Shown one piece after another: positions 4,305 through 12,924 of a DNA stretch of 20,106 nucleotides. The notes below the pieces were generated by a model, which saw only the letters and a program-made list of their open reading frames with translations, was not told the DNA's origin and did not search any database. The position numbers and the translations under genes were made by a program. This DNA comes from a virus: positions 6,402-26,507 of IMG/VR virus record IMGVR_UViG_3300000228_000033. One strand, 5' to 3'. Position 1 is the first letter of the stretch, and every line of letters begins with the position of its first letter.

Positions 4305-5684
4305 TTACGCAGTTACAACGATTTTAGTAATCAAAGTTGGAACTGGAGCAATCATACCTGCTTGTAGAGCAACCCCTTTTTGAGATTTCAATGGGTTTCG
4401 TTCCATACCTTCTGACAAGTTCGTAACGAACAATGGTAAATATGGAGCATAAACCACTGCAGTATCAAACATAGAAGAACCTTTAGAAATCATAAGGATT
4501 TCTGAATCAGGGATAACTGAACTTCTAAGAACAGGTTTTCCGTCTAGAGTACCAAAGAAGTGAGTACCAAGAACCGCATTCATATCCCCAGCTGGATTAA
4601 ATCCAGGAAGAGTTCTGATTATTGCTGAAGCTTGGTGACCAGCGATAAGCGCAGTTGCTCCACCACTTCTACCAGCATTGTTAAGAATTGTAGATTCTGC
4701 GAATGCTATTGCATCGAAGAAAGTTAGTTTATGTTCTGTGAAAGAAATCCCAGCAGGAGCAGTTTTTGACCAGTTTGTAGCGCCAACTGCTTTTACATAA
4801 GCTTCTAAAACAACATTTGAAGCAACTTCAGTTGTAAGTTCTTGAGTCAAGTCCTTTGCCATAGTTTCTTCAACATTGATACCAAATCTTTTACCGATTG
4901 AATATGATTTGAATAGACCGATGTCGCTTCTTAACGCATAAGTTCTAGCTCTAACGCCGATTGATTCATATTCGCTTCTAATAGTTGGTATTTCAGTTAA
5001 TGCTTCAAAGTTTGTTGCATAATTTATTGTAATGTTTGCTGCAACCGCTGGTGCTACTAAGAATGTTACAGAGAATACACCTGACTCATAGTTAATAACC
5101 CCAGAACCACCTACGCCGATCAAGTTTCCAAGACCGTCATCGATTAGTTTCAATGAACCAACAAAAATTTCTACTTCTCTTTTTCTTACTGGGAAATATA
5201 AAACTGTTCCAGAGAAAGTCACGTCAGAACCATCTCCAGTCCCGATTACTTCACCTTTTATATCTTCACCAGCATAAGAATTTCCTCTTTTAACTCTACC
5301 ATGAATCGCATCTACCAATACATCGTTATCAACTACTCCGCCTCTTGTAGTTTCAGCAACTACATTTTTGAAGTAAATTGTCCCTTGTTGTTCTTGCAAA
5401 GGTTGGATAGATGCAAATAAAGGTATTGGAGATTGAGCTGAAGATGCTGTAATAACATCAAGAGCGATATTTGGAAGAATTCCAAGGTCACCGTATGAAC
5501 CATTCGCTTCTGTGAATTTTTGGAAAGATTCATATTGCTCTAATTGAGCACCTAATGCAAAAAGGTCTTCGTTTGTAACTCCTCTAGTTTTTGCAACTGT
5601 TGATTTACTTTCGTAAAATGACATATAATCGTTGTATTTCTTAAAATACTGTTCTACTTTTTCGTGAAGTTTTATATCTTCCAT
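4305..5684 (-). CDS. Major capsid protein, T4 gp23-like HK97 fold with inserted beta domain (459 aa)
   Basis: This subunit builds the icosahedral head shell. Residues 82-107 (SAQSPIPLFASIQPLQEQQG, then TIYFKN) match the gp23 region 'P.LIAFDICGVQPM..PTG'. Residues 241-300 (SIGVRARTYALRSDIGLFKS, then helical FGINVEETMAKDLTQELTTE) match the gp23 stretch with 'ARTRALKAEYTIELAQDLKA...ILSTEI'. A putative maturation cut is FTE|A at residues 57-60, close to the gp23 cut after residue 65; the N-terminal 59 residues would be removed. Residues about 146-224 look like an inserted beta-sandwich (GDGSDVTF...DDGLGNL...GVINYESG). The start at 5684 has AGGAGG 5 nt upstream, part of it inside a hairpin. The gene is probably strongly expressed late. 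Confidence 0.93.
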   Translation of the reverse strand: MEDIKLHEKVEQYFKKYNDYMSFYESKSTVAKTRGVTNEDLFALGAQLEQYESFQKFTEANGSYGDLGILPNIALDVITASSAQSPIPLFASIQPLQEQQGTIYFKNVVAETTRGGVVDNDVLVDAIHGRVKRGNSYAGEDIKGEVIGTGDGSDVTFSGTVLYFPVRKREVEIFVGSLKLIDDGLGNLIGVGGSGVINYESGVFSVTFLVAPAVAANITINYATNFEALTEIPTIRSEYESIGVRARTYALRSDIGLFKSYSIGKRFGINVEETMAKDLTQELTTEVASNVVLEAYVKAVGATNWSKTAPAGISFTEHKLTFFDAIAFAESTILNNAGRSGGATALIAGHQASAIIRTLPGFNPAGDMNAVLGTHFFGTLDGKPVLRSSVIPDSEILMISKGSSMFDTAVVYAPYLPLFVTNLSEGMERNPLKSQKGVALQAGMIAPVPTLITKIVVTA

Positions 5685-5689
5685 GTTTT

Positions 5690-5730
5690 CCTCCTAAGGA
5701 ATATTTTTTGTTTTAGTAATATTTCTTAGG
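5690..5730 (-). promoter_or_regulatory. Hairpin overlapping the Shine-Dalgarno of the capsid gene
   Basis: On the minus strand CCTAAGAAATATT (5730-5718) can pair with AATATTCCTTAGG (5705-5693): 13 positions with one A-C mismatch and a 12-nt loop. The ribosome-binding site AGGAGG (5695-5690) has its first three bases in the stem; the ATG follows 5 nt later. Pairing would partly hide the site. Confidence 0.7.
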
Positions 5731-5775
5731 CATTTTTTGCTACCCACTTCTATAAAACAAAAACTTTTATACACT

Positions 5776-5783
5776 TATTTAAT
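5776..5783 (-). promoter_or_regulatory. ATTAAATA octamer, candidate late promoter element (major capsid gene)
   Basis: On the minus strand it reads ATACATTAAATAAGTGTATA. It lies 91 nt before the capsid start, leaving a long leader that contains the ribosome-site hairpin. Three CTTAAAA repeats (5801, 5811, 5819) lie just upstream. The rest of this 145-bp gap shows no gene. Confidence 0.55.
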
Positions 5784-5829
5784 GTATGTATTTAAGTAAA
5801 CTTAAAAAAACTTAAAAACTTAAAAGTCT

Positions 5830-7839
5830 CTATTTAGTCAGGCTTTCTAAAAATTTTGTTTTTGCTTCAGAAGAACTTTCGCTTCTATTAGAATATGTTG
5901 GAACTATAATTTCGATTTCTTTTTCGTTTTTTCTAAAATTTAATTTTTCTTCTTTTTCCAAAGCTAATAACAATCTTTCTTCACTTTCATATATGCCCAT
6001 CAATTTTTCTACAACTGGCAATTCCAGCCTATAATATAATGCGTAATATTTAGCAGAGGATGTTTGTATTTTTTCATAAAGATCATCGACTTTTTTCAAT
6101 GTTTCGTTTAGAGCGTTTTGAGTTTTTTTCTTTTCACTTTCTTCCAAATGAAACGCTTCTTCTAAATCTGATTTTTCTTTTTCGTTATCTTCAACTATTT
6201 CTTTAAAATAAACTTTATTAGTTTCTATACTTTCTTTTAGAGATTCATTTTCATCTCTAAGTTTTTCTCTAAGAAGTTGTTCATTTTCTATTTCCGACCT
6301 AAGTTCTTCTATAGTTTTTTCCAATTCCAATTTTTGTTTGTTTGTTTTTTCGACGGTTTCATTAATTTCAATGAAACGAGAATTAATATCATCTGGAATT
6401 TTGTATTCAATGACAGTTTCTTTTACGATTTCTTTTTCAGCGGATTTATTCAAGGCTTCTTCCAAAGTCTTCGTTAAAGAAATTGTCGCTTCTTTTAATT
6501 TTAAATTTTTACTCTTTAGTTCTATGATTTTAGTTTTATCTTCTTCATAAACAATTTCTTTTACTTCTACTTCCCTTTCTTTCAAGTCCCATAAAAAATC
6601 AATAGCAGATTCATCTGCTGATTTTATTTCAGTAGACGTGTCGATTCCCTTTGAACTAGGTTCTTTTTCTGAAGAAGTCTTTCCTTCTTTGTCTGTTTTT
6701 TCGTCGTCATTTTTTTCACCATCATTATTGATTTTTTTGGTAAGTTCATTAATTCGTTCACAAACATGTATAATTGATTCTTCAACATCTTTTTCTTTTA
6801 ATATTTTATCTGCGATTGCTGAAACGGAATTCATGTCATTGACTGTAATTTTTATATCCTTATCTAAAAATTGAATTAAATCATCATAATATTTTTCATA
6901 TTCGACTTTATACCTAACTAATTTTAAAAGAATTTCTATATAAGAAACATAATTCATAATAAGTTTAGAAGAAACAACTATTCCTCCATCTAATCCTTCT
7001 TTTTTTGGAGATAATGAAAGTAAATTATTTTCTTCTACGACATTTTTTATCATTAATATCAATTCTTCTTTCGCGAGATGTTCTAAAAGAGAAGTATCAA
7101 TTTCTTTACTAACTTCTTCAACTTCTTTCACTTCTTCTTCAACTTCTTTCACTTCTTCTTCAACTTCTTTCACTTCTACTTCTTCAACTTCTAAGTTTTC
7201 AAATTTCAACCCACATATTCCTTCTTCACATTCTATATGAACGATTTTATCTTTTTCTTCAAGTTCTAAAAAATCTTCTTTTAAACTTTCAATCAGTTTA
7301 GGATTTGTTTCTAAAAATCCTGGTTGTATTACAAAATCTATGCTTTCGATTACGAAATTTTTTTCGTCTAAAACTTTATATTTTTTTCCGTCTTTATCTT
7401 TTGTTTCATTAGAAAAACCGCCAAAAGCTCGAGTAGATACATACATTTCTGACCCAGAACGAAGAACAGTATTAAGAATTCTCCCAGAAGGAGTATCGAG
7501 AATTTCATATTCAGCGATTCCTTCTCCTGAATTTTCATTAATCTGAATATCCGTGACTTTATGGGACACCTTTCCTGATTCTAATAATTCATCGAGGCTA
7601 TAATCTTTTGGGTGTCCTATACATCCAAACATCAAACCTCTAGAAATCGTATTTTTCGTTTCTTGATTCTTAAGAGCATTTTCCCATAATTTCTTTGGGT
7701 AAAATCTTCCATTCCTAGAAAACCCGTCTAAGAAAAATGACGCCCCTTTTACTTTTGCGAGAACACCGTCTGGTAACGGTTCTTTTGATTCAGAAAAAAC
7801 CAACCCTTTCACGTCGTGGTTTTCATAAATGTATTCCAT
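5830..7839 (-). CDS. Prohead maturation protease fused to a scaffold-like coiled-coil domain (669 aa)
   Basis: Residues 1-185 match the T4 gp21/herpesvirus assemblin-type serine protease: FFLDGFSRNGRFYP (35-48), GCIGHPKDYSL with probable catalytic His76 (72-82), MYVSTRAFGG with probable nucleophile Ser135 (132-141), and VIESIDFVIQPGF (163-175). T4 gp21 is about 212 aa; here about 480 residues follow. Residues 219-245 are EVKEVEE repeats, 250-370 are helical, 370-410 are a charged linker, and 430-645 are heptad-like coiled coil (LEKTIEELRSEIENEQLLRE and neighbours). The C-terminus is KTKFLESLTK. This layout suggests protease and internal scaffold in one chain, as in the herpesvirus UL26 precursor, whereas T4 splits them (gp21, gp22). 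No separate gp22-like gene is seen before the capsid gene. The start has AAGGAG 5 nt upstream; the stop is TAG. Confidence 0.87.
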   Translation of the reverse strand: MEYIYENHDVKGLVFSESKEPLPDGVLAKVKGASFFLDGFSRNGRFYPKKLWENALKNQETKNTISRGLMFGCIGHPKDYSLDELLESGKVSHKVTDIQINENSGEGIAEYEILDTPSGRILNTVLRSGSEMYVSTRAFGGFSNETKDKDGKKYKVLDEKNFVIESIDFVIQPGFLETNPKLIESLKEDFLELEEKDKIVHIECEEGICGLKFENLEVEEVEVKEVEEEVKEVEEEVKEVEEVSKEIDTSLLEHLAKEELILMIKNVVEENNLLSLSPKKEGLDGGIVVSSKLIMNYVSYIEILLKLVRYKVEYEKYYDDLIQFLDKDIKITVNDMNSVSAIADKILKEKDVEESIIHVCERINELTKKINNDGEKNDDEKTDKEGKTSSEKEPSSKGIDTSTEIKSADESAIDFLWDLKEREVEVKEIVYEEDKTKIIELKSKNLKLKEATISLTKTLEEALNKSAEKEIVKETVIEYKIPDDINSRFIEINETVEKTNKQKLELEKTIEELRSEIENEQLLREKLRDENESLKESIETNKVYFKEIVEDNEKEKSDLEEAFHLEESEKKKTQNALNETLKKVDDLYEKIQTSSAKYYALYYRLELPVVEKLMGIYESEERLLLALEKEEKLNFRKNEKEIEIIVPTYSNRSESSSEAKTKFLESLTK
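7105..7185. repeat. 21-bp tandem repeats in the protease-scaffold gene
   Basis: Units close to ACTTCTTTCACTTCTTCTTCA on the + strand repeat about three to four times and encode the EVKEVEE heptads at residues 219-245. They mark the junction between protease and scaffold parts. Confidence 0.75.
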
Positions 7840-8608: not shown

Positions 8609-10087
8609 CTAAATTGGCTTTGTTGTTTCATCTGCGTTTGCTTCTTTTATTGAAAGAATGTCAAATCCAGCCATTCTTTCAAATTGAGAATTTAAGAATT
8701 TCACATATTCTTTCATGTTTATTTCTATTTCATCGTGGTCTTCGAAATCTTTTATGAAAGATTTGAAATTATCTACCATAGAAACAGTCAAGTCTAGAAA
8801 TTCAAGTTTTTCTAAATCATCCGTATTTAAAATATTTAAAAACACGATATCTATATTTTCTTTTACATAATTTCTAAACCCCAAATTACTCAGATGGATT
8901 ATAAGTAATCTTTGAAGACCTTCTTTTAAAGCATATTGTATTGATTTCAATTTTTTAGTATATCTAATGTGGTTTTTTATTACATCAGATTTTATTCCTT
9001 CTTCATCTATGATACTCGCAGGAACTCCGACTGTTGTTAGAGCCATTTTTCGTATATCAATAATTTTTTCTTGCATTTCAGCATAGTCGTTTTCTGAATT
9101 AAAGTCCTCTGCCTGAAGTTCTCCTTTATCCCCGAAATTAGGGATAACTTTTACTTCACCGACTCTAGCTCCAATTGTTCTTAATATTTCTTCATCTGTT
9201 TTATCAGCAGTTCCTACTTTTAATGATTTATTAATCATTTTTTCAAAAACTTGAGCTATTTTCTGAGCTTCAGCTGGTTTTGTTGAAGCTGGTACTGTTA
9301 CTGAAACTAACTTAGTTGCCAAAGCATCATTGATAAACCCTAGAGGAATTAAATTTTCTAGAAATTTCATCTCTTTTAGTAAACCATAAATAGGATAAAG
9401 TAAAGATTTCCCCATTCTAAGATATAAGATTTTCTCATCTAATCCGTCAACTTTTACTCTTATTCTTGAAGAAGGTAAAGAAAAATATACCAATTCTGTA
9501 GGTTGTACAGTTTCTATTTTATTTTTTCCTAATGAAAGATAGTAACTCACGTCGGAATCTCTGAATACAGGAATTGCTGTCGTCATATCTACGTCATCAT
9601 GTATAGTGATAATTCCTCTTTTTCCAGAATATTCATCATTTTGTCCGTTTACATCTACTCTTAAAAAATATTCTCCGTATAATAGTAAATCTGATGAAAT
9701 ATCTATTATCATTTTTTGCATATTAAATTCTTCTACAAAATTATTCGCTAATTTCGATGCTGCCTCGTCAATGTCCCCTACCGAATTTTTAATCCTTACT
9801 TCAAATAATTTATATTCATTCCCAGTTGGATTTAGTGAATCATCAAGAATTCTATCTATTATCATTTGACTAAAATAAAAATCCTTGATCGTATCTATAT
9901 CTTCAATAATTCCTCTTTTTGTTTTACTAATTTCTAAAAATTTAGTCAAAAGAATAGTGTTTACTGAAGGTTCGATAGAGTACATTTGCGTTTGAGCCTG
10001 CACTGCAGGATCCAATGAAATCGACCATCCGAAATATTTATTCGTCAAAGTTGAAAAATTGTCACCTATATTTTTAAAAATGTTCAT
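8609..10087 (-). CDS. Portal protein, T4 gp20-like (492 aa)
   Basis: This would be the dodecameric DNA-entry ring at the special head vertex, initiator of prohead assembly and docking site of the terminase. Diagnostic stretches: ILLTKFLEISKTKRGIIEDI (45-64), SSDLLLYGEYFLRVDVNG near 130-147, the mid-protein clip/stem region ESTIMATED by KVIPNFGDKGELQAEDFNSE (about 315-334), and IRKMALTTVGVPASIIDEEG (about 347-366), a typical portal helix followed by a long helical C-terminal crown. Length is close to T4 gp20 (524 aa). It follows the large terminase and precedes the protease and capsid genes, the canonical head order. The start at 10087 has AAGGAG 6 nt upstream. The candidate late promoter octamer lies 21 nt upstream. 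Confidence 0.85.
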   Translation of the reverse strand: MNIFKNIGDNFSTLTNKYFGWSISLDPAVQAQTQMYSIEPSVNTILLTKFLEISKTKRGIIEDIDTIKDFYFSQMIIDRILDDSLNPTGNEYKLFEVRIKNSVGDIDEAASKLANNFVEEFNMQKMIIDISSDLLLYGEYFLRVDVNGQNDEYSGKRGIITIHDDVDMTTAIPVFRDSDVSYYLSLGKNKIETVQPTELVYFSLPSSRIRVKVDGLDEKILYLRMGKSLLYPIYGLLKEMKFLENLIPLGFINDALATKLVSVTVPASTKPAEAQKIAQVFEKMINKSLKVGTADKTDEEILRTIGARVGEVKVIPNFGDKGELQAEDFNSENDYAEMQEKIIDIRKMALTTVGVPASIIDEEGIKSDVIKNHIRYTKKLKSIQYALKEGLQRLLIIHLSNLGFRNYVKENIDIVFLNILNTDDLEKLEFLDLTVSMVDNFKSFIKDFEDHDEIEINMKEYVKFLNSQFERMAGFDILSIKEANADETTKPI

Positions 10088-10120: not shown

Positions 10121-10180
10121 AATTTTTATATAAATTTTTATACGAATTTTTATTCAAATTTTATACGAATTTTTTATACA
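10121..10180. repeat. Five degenerate 12-bp tandem repeats (consensus AATTTTTATACG)
   Basis: Units begin at 10121, 10133, 10145, 10157 and 10168 on the + strand (lengths 12, 12, 12, 11, 13). They fill the gap between the large terminase stop and the portal promoter and run into the last terminase codons. On the minus strand each gives CGTATAAAAATT-like sequence. Confidence 0.8.
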
Positions 10181-12021
10181 AATCTCCCTCTTGTACCAAC
10201 TCCGAAAATGTCCTCAAAAGGATTTTCTTCATCAAAATCGTCTCCAACCGCTTCTTCAAGTTCTTCAATAAATTCTACATCCAAATATGGCTTATAATCT
10301 ACTTCAGTCGAAATAATAAACAAAGCATTCGCAATCGAATCAGAAATATCTTTAGAACCAGGAGTCCCGTCTGAATTGTGTTCAGGGTGATCTATTTTCT
10401 TTTCGTCTTCTTTTAGGTATGTTAGTTCTCTATAAAGTATTCTATTAAAAGGAAGTTTAATTCTTTCTTCTATAATAGCGTTTCTTAGTCCAACATATGC
10501 ATCTTTTTTTCTATCTACAGAATTCATTTTTGTCTTTATACCTTGTTTTTCAAGTAATTGTAAAGTATCCGTAGATTGAAAACTATCCGAAACAACAAAT
10601 TCTATGTTCATTCCTAATCTCTGTAACTCAAAAATAAACTCTCTTATTTGATATAATTTTAATTTTTCACCTTTCGGAGCCTTAATTCCTACAGCAAAAT
10701 CTACCCAATATTCATATTCTTTTAATTCTCCTTCTCCAGAACCTTTTGCGTTGTGAATATGTATCATACAAAGACCATATCTATCCCCTGAATATGCAAT
10801 ATCTAGCCCTATAACTTTTTGGCTTCCTGGTTTGAACATATCAATTTTCGTCAAATTAAAGAAATCTTTTAATTCAGCGGTTTCTGATAAAACTATTTCA
10901 TCAAGTTGACAAGCTCCATGTAATACAAGAGAGTTGTTTATTTTTTCTTTGAATGGAATAAATGTTCTTGTGTCAGAAACTACGACCCCTAATACATCCC
11001 TAATACCAGCATAAATGTCATCAAACTCTTTTCTATATTCTATTGGAACTTCGAATATTTTTGTTCTGTCAAATTGCTCAGCTCTAAGTTGGTCTTGAGG
11101 CGTTTCTATAAAAAATGGATCAGATTGATAGTCCCCAGTGAAAATTTTAAAAACCTTTCCACAATATTCTATCTTATGAGAAAGAATTTCGAATCTAGGT
11201 GCTGAAATTACTAAAATGTCAGATTTTTTTAATTCATCATCATCATTATGGGAATTTTCTTTCGCATTCTCTATAAGGGACTGAATAAGAGAACCTTCTG
11301 TCGTGGCTGAAGAAATCATGGAATAATGTCCTGGCCAATTATTCCCTTTTAACAAGAATCTCGAATTTATCCTGTTATACATTTCCGTGACAATTGATTT
11401 TGAAGACCCTTTAAGAATTTCTTGGTTTACTTCATCTGAGGATGCAGAATAAACATTTTTTCCTACGAGAGAATGTTTTCTAGATACCATGTTTATATCA
11501 ATGTTATTTATGAATAAAGATGATCTTGATTTTGTGTTATTAAATTTTGATCTAAAAAAAGGGCTTTCTCTTATAAAAGACATAATTGGGTCATAATTCA
11601 GTTGTTCAATATTATCTATAGTTGAATTGGTAAGAGTAAAAAATATCTTTGCAGTTTTTGGTAATTTGAATTTTGTTTGCGGTTCATCCATACAAAGGAG
11701 TCTTGCTAAATCATAAAGAAAAATTATACTTGCTACAGTTGTTTTCCCTATCCCTGTTGCCCCAGACAACAAAATAACTTTGTAACGATTTGTTTCAAAA
11801 AATGGAGTAGGGTATATATCAATAAGTTTTTCTTTCCAAAACGGGAAAACGGATGAGTTTTTATCTAAAGAGTTTCCTAAATAATATTCGTTCGTTATAA
11901 ACTCAGTAATTGTAGGTGGCGTTTGTGTATAAGAATTTGTTTTCGCATATAAACCATAGAGATGATTTCTATCATTTTTCGTAAGCCTGTTGATTTCTTT
12001 TTCTTCTAACTTAACAGACAT
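10174..12021 (-). CDS. terL: Terminase large subunit, packaging ATPase and nuclease (615 aa)
   Basis: This is the motor that pumps DNA into the prohead through the portal and cuts the concatemer. The N-terminal ATPase has Walker A SGATGIGKTT (86-95), a probable Walker B ending YSASSDEV (Asp196-Glu197) and a coupling motif ISSATTEGS (236-244). The C-terminal RNase H-like nuclease has the expected acidic triad: VIGLDIAYSGD with Asp407, FVVSDSFQSTD with Asp479 and SKDISDSIANA with Asp558/Asp561. Length is close to T4 gp17 (610 aa). The start at 12021 has AAAGGTGAG upstream, about 7-9 nt away. It sits between a 66-aa gene and the portal gene, as usual for packaging modules. No intein or frameshift is seen. 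Confidence 0.92.
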   Translation of the reverse strand: MSVKLEEKEINRLTKNDRNHLYGLYAKTNSYTQTPPTITEFITNEYYLGNSLDKNSSVFPFWKEKLIDIYPTPFFETNRYKVILLSGATGIGKTTVASIIFLYDLARLLCMDEPQTKFKLPKTAKIFFTLTNSTIDNIEQLNYDPIMSFIRESPFFRSKFNNTKSRSSLFINNIDINMVSRKHSLVGKNVYSASSDEVNQEILKGSSKSIVTEMYNRINSRFLLKGNNWPGHYSMISSATTEGSLIQSLIENAKENSHNDDDELKKSDILVISAPRFEILSHKIEYCGKVFKIFTGDYQSDPFFIETPQDQLRAEQFDRTKIFEVPIEYRKEFDDIYAGIRDVLGVVVSDTRTFIPFKEKINNSLVLHGACQLDEIVLSETAELKDFFNLTKIDMFKPGSQKVIGLDIAYSGDRYGLCMIHIHNAKGSGEGELKEYEYWVDFAVGIKAPKGEKLKLYQIREFIFELQRLGMNIEFVVSDSFQSTDTLQLLEKQGIKTKMNSVDRKKDAYVGLRNAIIEERIKLPFNRILYRELTYLKEDEKKIDHPEHNSDGTPGSKDISDSIANALFIISTEVDYKPYLDVEFIEELEEAVGDDFDEENPFEDIFGVGTRGRFV

Positions 12022-12056: not shown

Positions 12057-12257
12057 TCAATCTAGATAATTTACAATAGAGCCACTGAAGATGAAATTAT
12101 CTGGTTTTTCCTTTTCAGACTTTCCTATTTTATTTGGTGCAGTTGGAATCACTCCAAGATCTCCATAACTTCCGTCAGATTCTGATTTTTTTGAACTATT
12201 TGGAATTTTATTTTTTTCACGATTCTCAGTTATTTCATCAACTATTTCTTTTAACAT
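12057..12257 (-). CDS. 66-aa protein sharing a GSYGDLG motif with the major capsid protein
   Basis: The ORF overlaps the 3' end of the 228-aa upstream gene by 20 nt. Its ATG at 12257 has GAGGGGGG about 6 nt upstream, so it is probably translated. It is short, charged and probably largely disordered: a basic/acidic first half, then DGSYGDLGVIP at residues 28-38, then a polar linker and NFIFSGSIVNYLD. The major capsid protein has NGSYGDLGILP at residues 61-71, just after its putative maturation cut. Codons differ at most of these positions, so this is not a recent DNA copy. Placed directly before the large terminase, it may be a packaging or head accessory factor. I do not recognise a family. 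Confidence 0.68.
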   Translation of the reverse strand: MLKEIVDEITENREKNKIPNSSKKSESDGSYGDLGVIPTAPNKIGKSEKEKPDNFIFSGSIVNYLD

Positions 12258-12924
12258 CTTCTTCCCCCCTCATTTCTTTTCTTTGCTCTTCTTCTGCCGA
12301 ACTTAAAAAGTTTTCATTATGAAGAAGAGCTTGTAATAAACTTTGCATTTTATTATCACTCTCATCATTTTCAGATTCTTTCATAGATTCTTTTGCGTGT
12401 AAAGATAACAAATTTGCTTCTAGTGAACTAAAGTCTACATCTTTTCGTATCTCTCGTATCATTCTAAAAGAATCAGAACGCATCATCCTGGTATTTGTAT
12501 AAAGTAATAGAAGATCACTTTTATTCATACCGTCTAGAATTTCATCTTTGAATAACTTATCTTCTATTTTTCCAAGAAATACTTCTATTTTTTGTAACTT
12601 AACTGCAGTTTGTTTTGCCAAGTTAGCCATAGCTAAATCTATGGCTAATTCTGTCGTGCTTACTTCATTAATTATTGAACGCTCTGGAATTTTTCTATCA
12701 CGAACCAAATTTTCTGTTTCAGATTTTATATTATTAGTCATATCTGAAACTTCAGAATATTCAGTTGATTCTACATATTCAGCGCATTCAGAAGAACTAG
12801 AATACTCTTTCTCTTCGGAACTCATTTCTTTGTCGAGTTCCCCCATTAGAATCTTCTTAGCTTGATATAGTTCCATGTCTATAATTTCTACAAAAACTTC
12901 ATCGACTTCATTATTACCTTTCAT
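12238..12924 (-). CDS. Putative terminase small subunit (228 aa)
   Basis: The start at 12924 has AAAGGAG 6 nt upstream. Residues 35-62 are Ser/Glu/Tyr-rich and probably disordered. Residues 88-165 form an alpha-helical core (TTELAIDLAMANLAKQTAVK, then LQKIEVFLGKIEDKLF, then SDLLLLYTNTRMMRSDSFRM). Residues 178-228 are polar with a further helix. A small protein with a central helical or coiled-coil core just before the large terminase matches the size and place of T4 gp16-type small terminases, which recognise DNA and stimulate the packaging ATPase. No helix-turn-helix is obvious, as in T4-like small subunits. It leads the virion cluster behind two promoter-like elements. The assignment is mainly positional. 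Confidence 0.6.
   Translation of the reverse strand: MKGNNEVDEVFVEIIDMELYQAKKILMGELDKEMSSEEKEYSSSSECAEYVESTEYSEVSDMTNNIKSETENLVRDRKIPERSIINEVSTTELAIDLAMANLAKQTAVKLQKIEVFLGKIEDKLFKDEILDGMNKSDLLLLYTNTRMMRSDSFRMIREIRKDVDFSSLEANLLSLHAKESMKESENDESDNKMQSLLQALLHNENFLSSAEEEQRKEMRGEEDVKRNS

Follow-up and report, generated by a model that had tools for sequence, protein, structure and literature searches.

In phage T4, the model for head assembly, residues 66–91 of the mature capsid protein gp23* form the N-fist, which contacts four subunits, two of them in the adjacent capsomer (PMC7136217, PMC9958956), and, at positions facing the portal, is disordered (PMC7136217). During expansion, the N-terminus of gp23 moves from the interior to the outer surface and becomes ordered (PMC9958956). 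The T4 internal proteins bear capsid targeting sequences, which are N-terminal tags of ~10 residues (PMC9026906, PMC9958956), and a ~10-aa tag of this kind suffices for a protein to enter the head (PMC9026906). T4 gp61.1 is conserved in the Straboviridae and had no assigned function; in the literature that we searched, largely without subscription journals, it is mentioned only as a hypothetical protein, and mimicry of gp23 is undescribed.

We analysed a stretch of 20,106 nucleotides (the window) that lies within a 26.5-kb IMG/VR contig from a T4-like phage. The genes for a gp23-type major capsid protein (MCP), an S77-type protease, a portal-like protein, the large terminase (TerL), a gp16-like protein and topoisomerase II are all on the minus strand. 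The features that matter here are as follows.

4305..5684, minus strand: gp23-type MCP (Pfam Gp23 PF07068, 1.6e-13; profile matches T4 gp23* structures in the PDB)
5472..5504, minus strand: MCP motif NGSYGDLGILP, residues 61–71, directly after a putative cut at Glu59
5508..5684, minus strand: MCP propeptide, residues 1–59, predicted helical (model of low confidence overall)
5830..7839, minus strand: S77-type prohead protease with a long charged C-terminal region (phrog_207, 2.5e-23; Pfam S77 below cut-off)
8609..10087, minus strand: portal-like protein, from position and conservation (family searches without a match)
10174..12021, minus strand: TerL (phrog_2, 1.3e-9)
12057..12257, minus strand: gene for the 66-aa mimic of the capsid N-terminus, between the gp16-like and TerL genes (counterparts in the same place in L005, L006, L007, L027 and L029)
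12144..12176, minus strand: mimic motif DGSYGDLGVIP, residues 28–38, preceded by Glu26 in register with the MCP P1 Glu
12225..12257, minus strand: tag MLKEIVDEITE, residues 1–11 of the small protein, capsid-targeting-like and ending in IxE
12238..12924, minus strand: gp16-like protein, a conserved neighbour upstream of the small gene, overlapping it by 20 nt
12258..12270, minus strand: Shine-Dalgarno AGGGGGG and a 6-nt spacer ahead of the ATG

By its match to the Gp23 profile, the window capsid gene falls in the HK97-fold gp23-type MCP class. Its motif occupies the place that corresponds to the T4 N-fist, directly after the propeptide cut, but differs from it in sequence and length. Because this arm is ~15 residues shorter than that of T4, the window MCP may lack a true N-fist. 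The AlphaFold model of the MCP is poor (mean pLDDT 57; arm region <35), and was therefore kept out of fold searches. A second capsid protein of the gp24 kind was sought by profile in two genomes (G001 and G007) without a match; this is uninformative, since T4 gp24 itself escaped the profile. From its position, we infer that the gp16-like protein is the small terminase.

The 66-residue protein and the capsid N-terminus

The product of the small ORF, MLKEIVDEITENREKNKIPNSSKKSESDGSYGDLGVIPTAPNKIGKSEKEKPDNFIFSGSIVNYLD, shares seven consecutive identical residues with the MCP, in the segments DGSYGDLGVIP (residues 28–38) and NGSYGDLGILP (MCP residues 61–71), as the earlier note on this DNA had pointed out. 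When the small protein was compared with the proteins of its own genome, the MCP was the only other match (E 3.3e-4). The 20-mer that follows the MCP cut scored 58 against the 66-aa ORF, compared with at most 31 for shuffled ORFs and at most 37 for other MCP 20-mers, and a motif PSSM, built with the window copy included, gave 43 bits for the ORF compared with a best score of 16.5 among ~15,400 shuffled ORFs. The match is thus real and far above chance. The capsid segment lies directly after the putative maturation cut, as had also been proposed: Glu59 is invariant in 14 IMG/VR MCPs and is present in aligned cultured relatives.

The same codon is used at only 3 of the 8 identical residues of the window pair, in agreement with the earlier remark that most codons differ. 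Across eight genomes, identical residues of the two copies share a codon in 31/66 cases, and 30.5 are expected from codon usage. We therefore reject a recent DNA duplication of the capsid segment; since codon identity is at the random level, the match is held at the protein level, one of the two possibilities raised at the outset.

The ORF is probably translated, because it has a strong Shine-Dalgarno sequence, shares 20 nt with the upstream gene, and is kept in place in relatives. The site before its motif is KSE, which keeps the Glu without a hydrophobic P3, and the corresponding sites in L006 (ILE) and L007 (LGE) fit [LIV]xE. The P1 Glu is missing in L005, L027 and L034–L036. Cleavage at the motif would thus not be universal.

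Location of the second copy in related phages

The small protein, used directly as a query for homologues, retrieved no relatives, and related contigs were gathered by searches with TerL, the MCP and the gp16-like protein. In five of these contigs, the gene between the gp16-like and TerL genes carries the motif (L005, ADGGYGDLGVIPTAP; L006, EADGSVGDLGAAPS; L007, EADGSYGDLGVVPTAP; L027, DGGYGDLGVISTAP; L029, EADGSMGDLGAPPS). The motif is degenerate in the TerL-adjacent gene of L003 and L031, and is absent from the gene at this position in L004, L018 and L097. For L004, no second copy was found in its 48-kb contig. In L018 and L097, the second copy is instead at the N-terminus of the protease (IKE/SNGSTDDIG and FLE/EDGSRGDLG, respectively), with Arg in both L097 copies (GSRSDLG and GSRGDLG); the motif is absent from the N-terminus of the window protease, FSESKEPLPDGVL. 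In L034–L036, the second copy belongs to the gene product encoded between portal and protease; this is 64 aa long in L034 and P-loop kinase-like in L035 and L036. GGQGDLG is common to MCP and partner in these three contigs, except that the L034 MCP has GGQSDLG.

The second copy thus changes its host gene, being found in a TerL-adjacent protein, in a protein encoded between portal and protease, or at the protease N-terminus. Relatives in which the capsid keeps the motif and the small gene lacks it, named in the earlier note as counter-evidence, do exist (L018 and L097, with the motif on the protease); L004, without a second copy in its contig, and the degenerate L003 and L031 belong here as well. 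The adjacency to TerL that it named holds in the window and some relatives; elsewhere the copy adjoins the primase gene (T4 and Syn9, see below) or lies in the protease or in the gene between portal and protease. In the IMG/VR contigs listed, the motif occurs in the MCP and one further protein, and no third copy was detected by PSSM in whole-genome or whole-contig scans. G002 has one extra exact match to the pattern GxxGDLG, without a PSSM score, and a scan match in L093 was a false positive.

Mimic-MCP scores across lineages were 44–96 for a phage's own MCP and at most 36 for MCPs of other lineages, supporting the view that, across distant lineages, the mimic follows the phage's own MCP. Within lineages, the excess for the own genome was small (permutation p 0.003 for the T4-like and 0.047 for the IMG/VR set, uncorrected for phylogeny), so covariation is weak at this level. 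In both the T4-like and IMG/VR families, GD, I and G are invariant, and G and P positions are near-invariant.

The TerL gene is intact in the window; in L005 (5857–11578), L007 (9995–12585), L027 (10736–12964) and L097 (1914–4326), its Walker A motif is interrupted (G.G.GK^C...). The interruptions look like split inteins and resemble the AceL-TerL kind, and some halves are separated by endonuclease-like or other ORFs. The MCP gene of L097 (8500–10720) is split into two ORFs; a further ORF of 150 aa separates them and may reflect an intron or another kind of insertion. The P-loop kinase/zeta-toxin-like protein of L035 (15152–15952; AAA_33, 3.7e-9), encoded between portal and protease, has the capsid motif near its N-terminus.

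T4 gp61.1 and mimics in other phages

The opening residues of mature gp23, when used to scan T4, had a single clear match besides gp23, the 54-aa hypothetical protein gp61.1 (MKTFKEFIKEDMVAGDSGGNPENISIGTTSGAVVNKGPEQIPKKKKEESKEKEE); no MCP mimic segment was detected elsewhere in T4. gp61.1 consists of the tag MKTFKEFIKE, which nearly copies the start of two T4 proteins (MKTYQEFIAE), a copy of the mature gp23 N-terminus (the N-fist), and a lysine-rich tail. MKTFKEFIKE followed by DMVAGDSGGNPENISIGTTSGAVVNKGP in gp61.1 scored 52 against FLTE followed by AEIGGDHGYNATNIAAGQTSGAVTQIGP in gp23, compared with 37 for shuffled sequence. A control with 20 residues did not settle the matter (42, compared with 46 for a different MCP segment); the argument for T4 therefore relies on the longer segment together with conservation in the family. 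A gp23 N-terminal query recovered gp61.1 in most of 14 genomes tested, and tblastn with gp61.1 gave matches in 1437 phage records, some being gp23 itself. The Straboviridae keep gp61.1 as the short form or as a ~150–165-aa form with a YxxRF domain, which correspond to PHROG 1823 and PHROG 2086, respectively, both of unknown function; T4 gp61.1 itself matches PHROG 1823/2086. In 13/15 gp61.1 proteins, [LIV]xE lines up with the gp23 cut, and in the other two it comes one residue later; the family is predicted to carry a protease site aligned to that of gp23. In five records (MW082584.1, MN038175.1, MN013084.1, MT612988.1 and NC_008296.2), gp61.1-type proteins bear the annotation (putative) major capsid or major head protein, for which the mimic segment is apparently responsible.

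Like gp61.1, the window protein is small (66 vs 54 aa) and tagged, with a copy of the mature N-terminus of its own MCP and a charged, Lys-rich tail. Its own-MCP segment and its capsid-targeting-like tag, the latter judged by sequence only, place it in a gp61.1-type class of proteins that would work alike. The two proteins have no sequence homology outside this principle, and a PHROG search with the window protein gave no match, to PHROG 1823 or 2086 or otherwise. The copies also differ in length (~27 residues in T4, ~11 in the window), and the T4 gene adjoins the primase gene 61, whereas the window gene lies between the gp16-like and TerL genes and is not near a gene 61.

Synechococcus phage Syn9 gp190, annotated as 'major head protein', likewise copies the mature N-terminus of its own MCP at its N-terminus, after a Glu and in the same register (TTGYTGGDAATGPTAGYDP vs TTGYTGGDTVTGPVAGFDP; 96 vs 43), and this N-terminus is quite different from those of other lineages; a 20-mer control (80) was probably contaminated by overlapping fetched pieces with MCP parts. 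Unlike the window protein, gp190 has ~175 aa with a long basic/coiled region, and its gene is one gene before the primase gene. Sinorhizobium phage phiN3 gp354, which has a YxxRF domain, shares TNTGNI with its own MCP, a marginal case (44 vs 38). Three cultured relatives, Rhizobium TM30, E. coli IME392 and Acinetobacter Ab1-TPeters, showed no second copy when their whole genomes were scanned, C48C1 yielded no convincing mimic, and a candidate in L099 (LGAIPNPTVGVV; 5513–6244) was rejected because its score was at background level (27 vs 30).

N-terminal tag, proposed role and alternatives

Several TerL-adjacent proteins start with M[LI][KR]E. [IL]xE occurs within the first 11 residues of 11/13 TerL-adjacent or partner proteins, compared with 22.8% of genes (p 4e-6, from non-independent sequences), and a clear tag is confined to some genomes. 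In G010, the genome of the L027 motif protein, ten other short unrelated genes carry the tag M[LI][KR]EI.E; N-terminal segments gave 46 similar pairs, compared with 1 for internal segments, and the tags end in IxE. These genes, at least ten with four consecutive (L062 2357–3393, L064 16369–17978, L065 7206–16915 and L027 13022–13273), probably encode a set of head-targeted proteins. An N-terminal tag that ends in [IL]xE and is common to unrelated short genes of one genome is also a property of the T4 internal proteins (IPI, IPII, IPIII and Alt); however, these have no detected MCP mimic, their tag is MKTYQEFIAE rather than M[LI][KR]EI.E, and packaging of the proteins described here is predicted. 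Another possible capsid-targeting tag, M[ST].AR[DE][FV][LI][KR]-like, starts several genes of L099 (3539–13922), and a 268-aa protein of L005 (8309–9115) combines a MIREII tag with repeats of the FNGDISKWNV type.

The sequences show the mimicry, the tag and conservation at the protein level; they also show that, across lineages, each copy fits the MCP of its own phage, and they allow a cut site to be predicted for the T4 family. The reading that we prefer, to which we give about an even chance, is that the 66-aa protein is a head protein that is targeted to the prohead, is processed by the protease, and imitates the N-terminus of the mature MCP so as to dock at the sites of MCP N-termini. The tag would send the protein into the prohead core, where the prohead protease would process it; the DGSYGDLGVIP segment would then dock at sites for MCP N-termini in the maturing shell, and the charged tail would stay inside. 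A prohead-targeted protein that exposes a copy of the N-fist could use N-fist docking sites, most simply those without an MCP donor, such as positions around the portal vertex. The window protein would thus act like T4 gp61.1, with its tag, cut site, gp23* N-terminus copy and lysine-rich tail. Packaging into the prohead, cleavage, the docking site and a stabilising role are what we infer for the 66-aa protein. The N-arm mimicry proposed in the earlier note is supported, as are its conservation at the protein level and, across distant lineages, its fit to the phage's own MCP; binding to the portal vertex, the protease or the terminase is conjecture, and the suggested coupling of maturation to packaging found no support.

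Protease recognition is an unlikely explanation of the shared segment, although it accounts for several observations. The small protein would offer the S77 protease the region of the MCP cut and so time cleavage as a competing substrate, or as an inhibitor where P1 is not Glu. Consistent with this, the MCP motif directly follows a P1-Glu site, several partners have the P1 Glu, the motif is at the protease N-terminus in L018 and L097, and P1 is D, Q or G in L005, L027 and L034–L036, as in pseudo-substrates. However, cleavage rules for T4 and SPN3US are described on the P side (PMC9026906, PMC10052503), tagged genes have IxE sites without the GDLG part, and the similarity runs 10–27 residues downstream of the cut, structural Gly/Pro positions included.

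We consider it rather improbable that the proteins are injected cargo like the T4 internal proteins, in which the segment would serve only as a tag for processing or anchoring and the other, diverse parts (a P-loop kinase-like portion, the two-Cys basic domain or short tails) would act in the host. The targeting-like tags and the diversity of fused parts, including the zeta-toxin/AAA_33-like protein of L035 and basic domains, fit such a role. Against it, each genome has a single motif protein, many forms (54–66 aa) are nearly all tag and mimic, and the T4 internal proteins are tagged, yet the mimic segment was undetected elsewhere in T4.

It is still less probable that the mimic is not a lasting structural part but regulates assembly by competing with MCP N-termini (capping, head length or timing of expansion). 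The cut register is that of the MCP, the tag would bring the protein into the same compartment, and MCP N-termini shift and become ordered during expansion (PMC9958956); against this reading, the charged tail that follows the mimic is conserved, which hints at a role beyond competition. A functionless relic of a duplicated MCP fragment, or coincidence, is very improbable despite the shortness of the segment, given scores well above those of shuffles, random codon identity despite a conserved protein, and recurrence in separate lineages that each match their own MCP.

Extending the preferred reading of a docking head protein, we tentatively suggest that a dedicated mimic of the capsid arm (gp61.1, Syn9 gp190 and the 66-aa protein) is widespread in T4-supergroup phages and would enter the prohead, be freed by the protease together with the MCP N-termini, and fill or compete for docking sites without a donor, for example at vertices; this would be an undescribed class of maturation factor that coevolves with the MCP, a generalisation that is possible rather than probable. 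Seen as a copy of the gp23* N-terminus with a tag, gp61.1 acquires a definite role that is testable in the model phage and a place in existing capsid maps where it may be sought, and the sequence signature helps to find the mimic class in uncultured phages like that of the window.

The TerL-adjacent protein of L018 (E 4e-5) and the C-terminus of T4 gp68 (0.0017) both match PHROG 3503 (head scaffolding); hhalign found no match between the two-Cys basic domain and gp68, in the Rhizobium phage PHROG 3503 does not keep a syntenic position, and the window protein differs in having no such domain. The two-Cys, very basic C-terminal domain (C.GNKTP...K.KCT..D...SR) forms one protein with the mimic in some genomes and has a gene of its own in others, with sites in L003 (9119–9970), L006 (8260–8886), L029 (2534–3205), L031 (10553–11296), L097 (1011–1289) and L062 (2357–2674).
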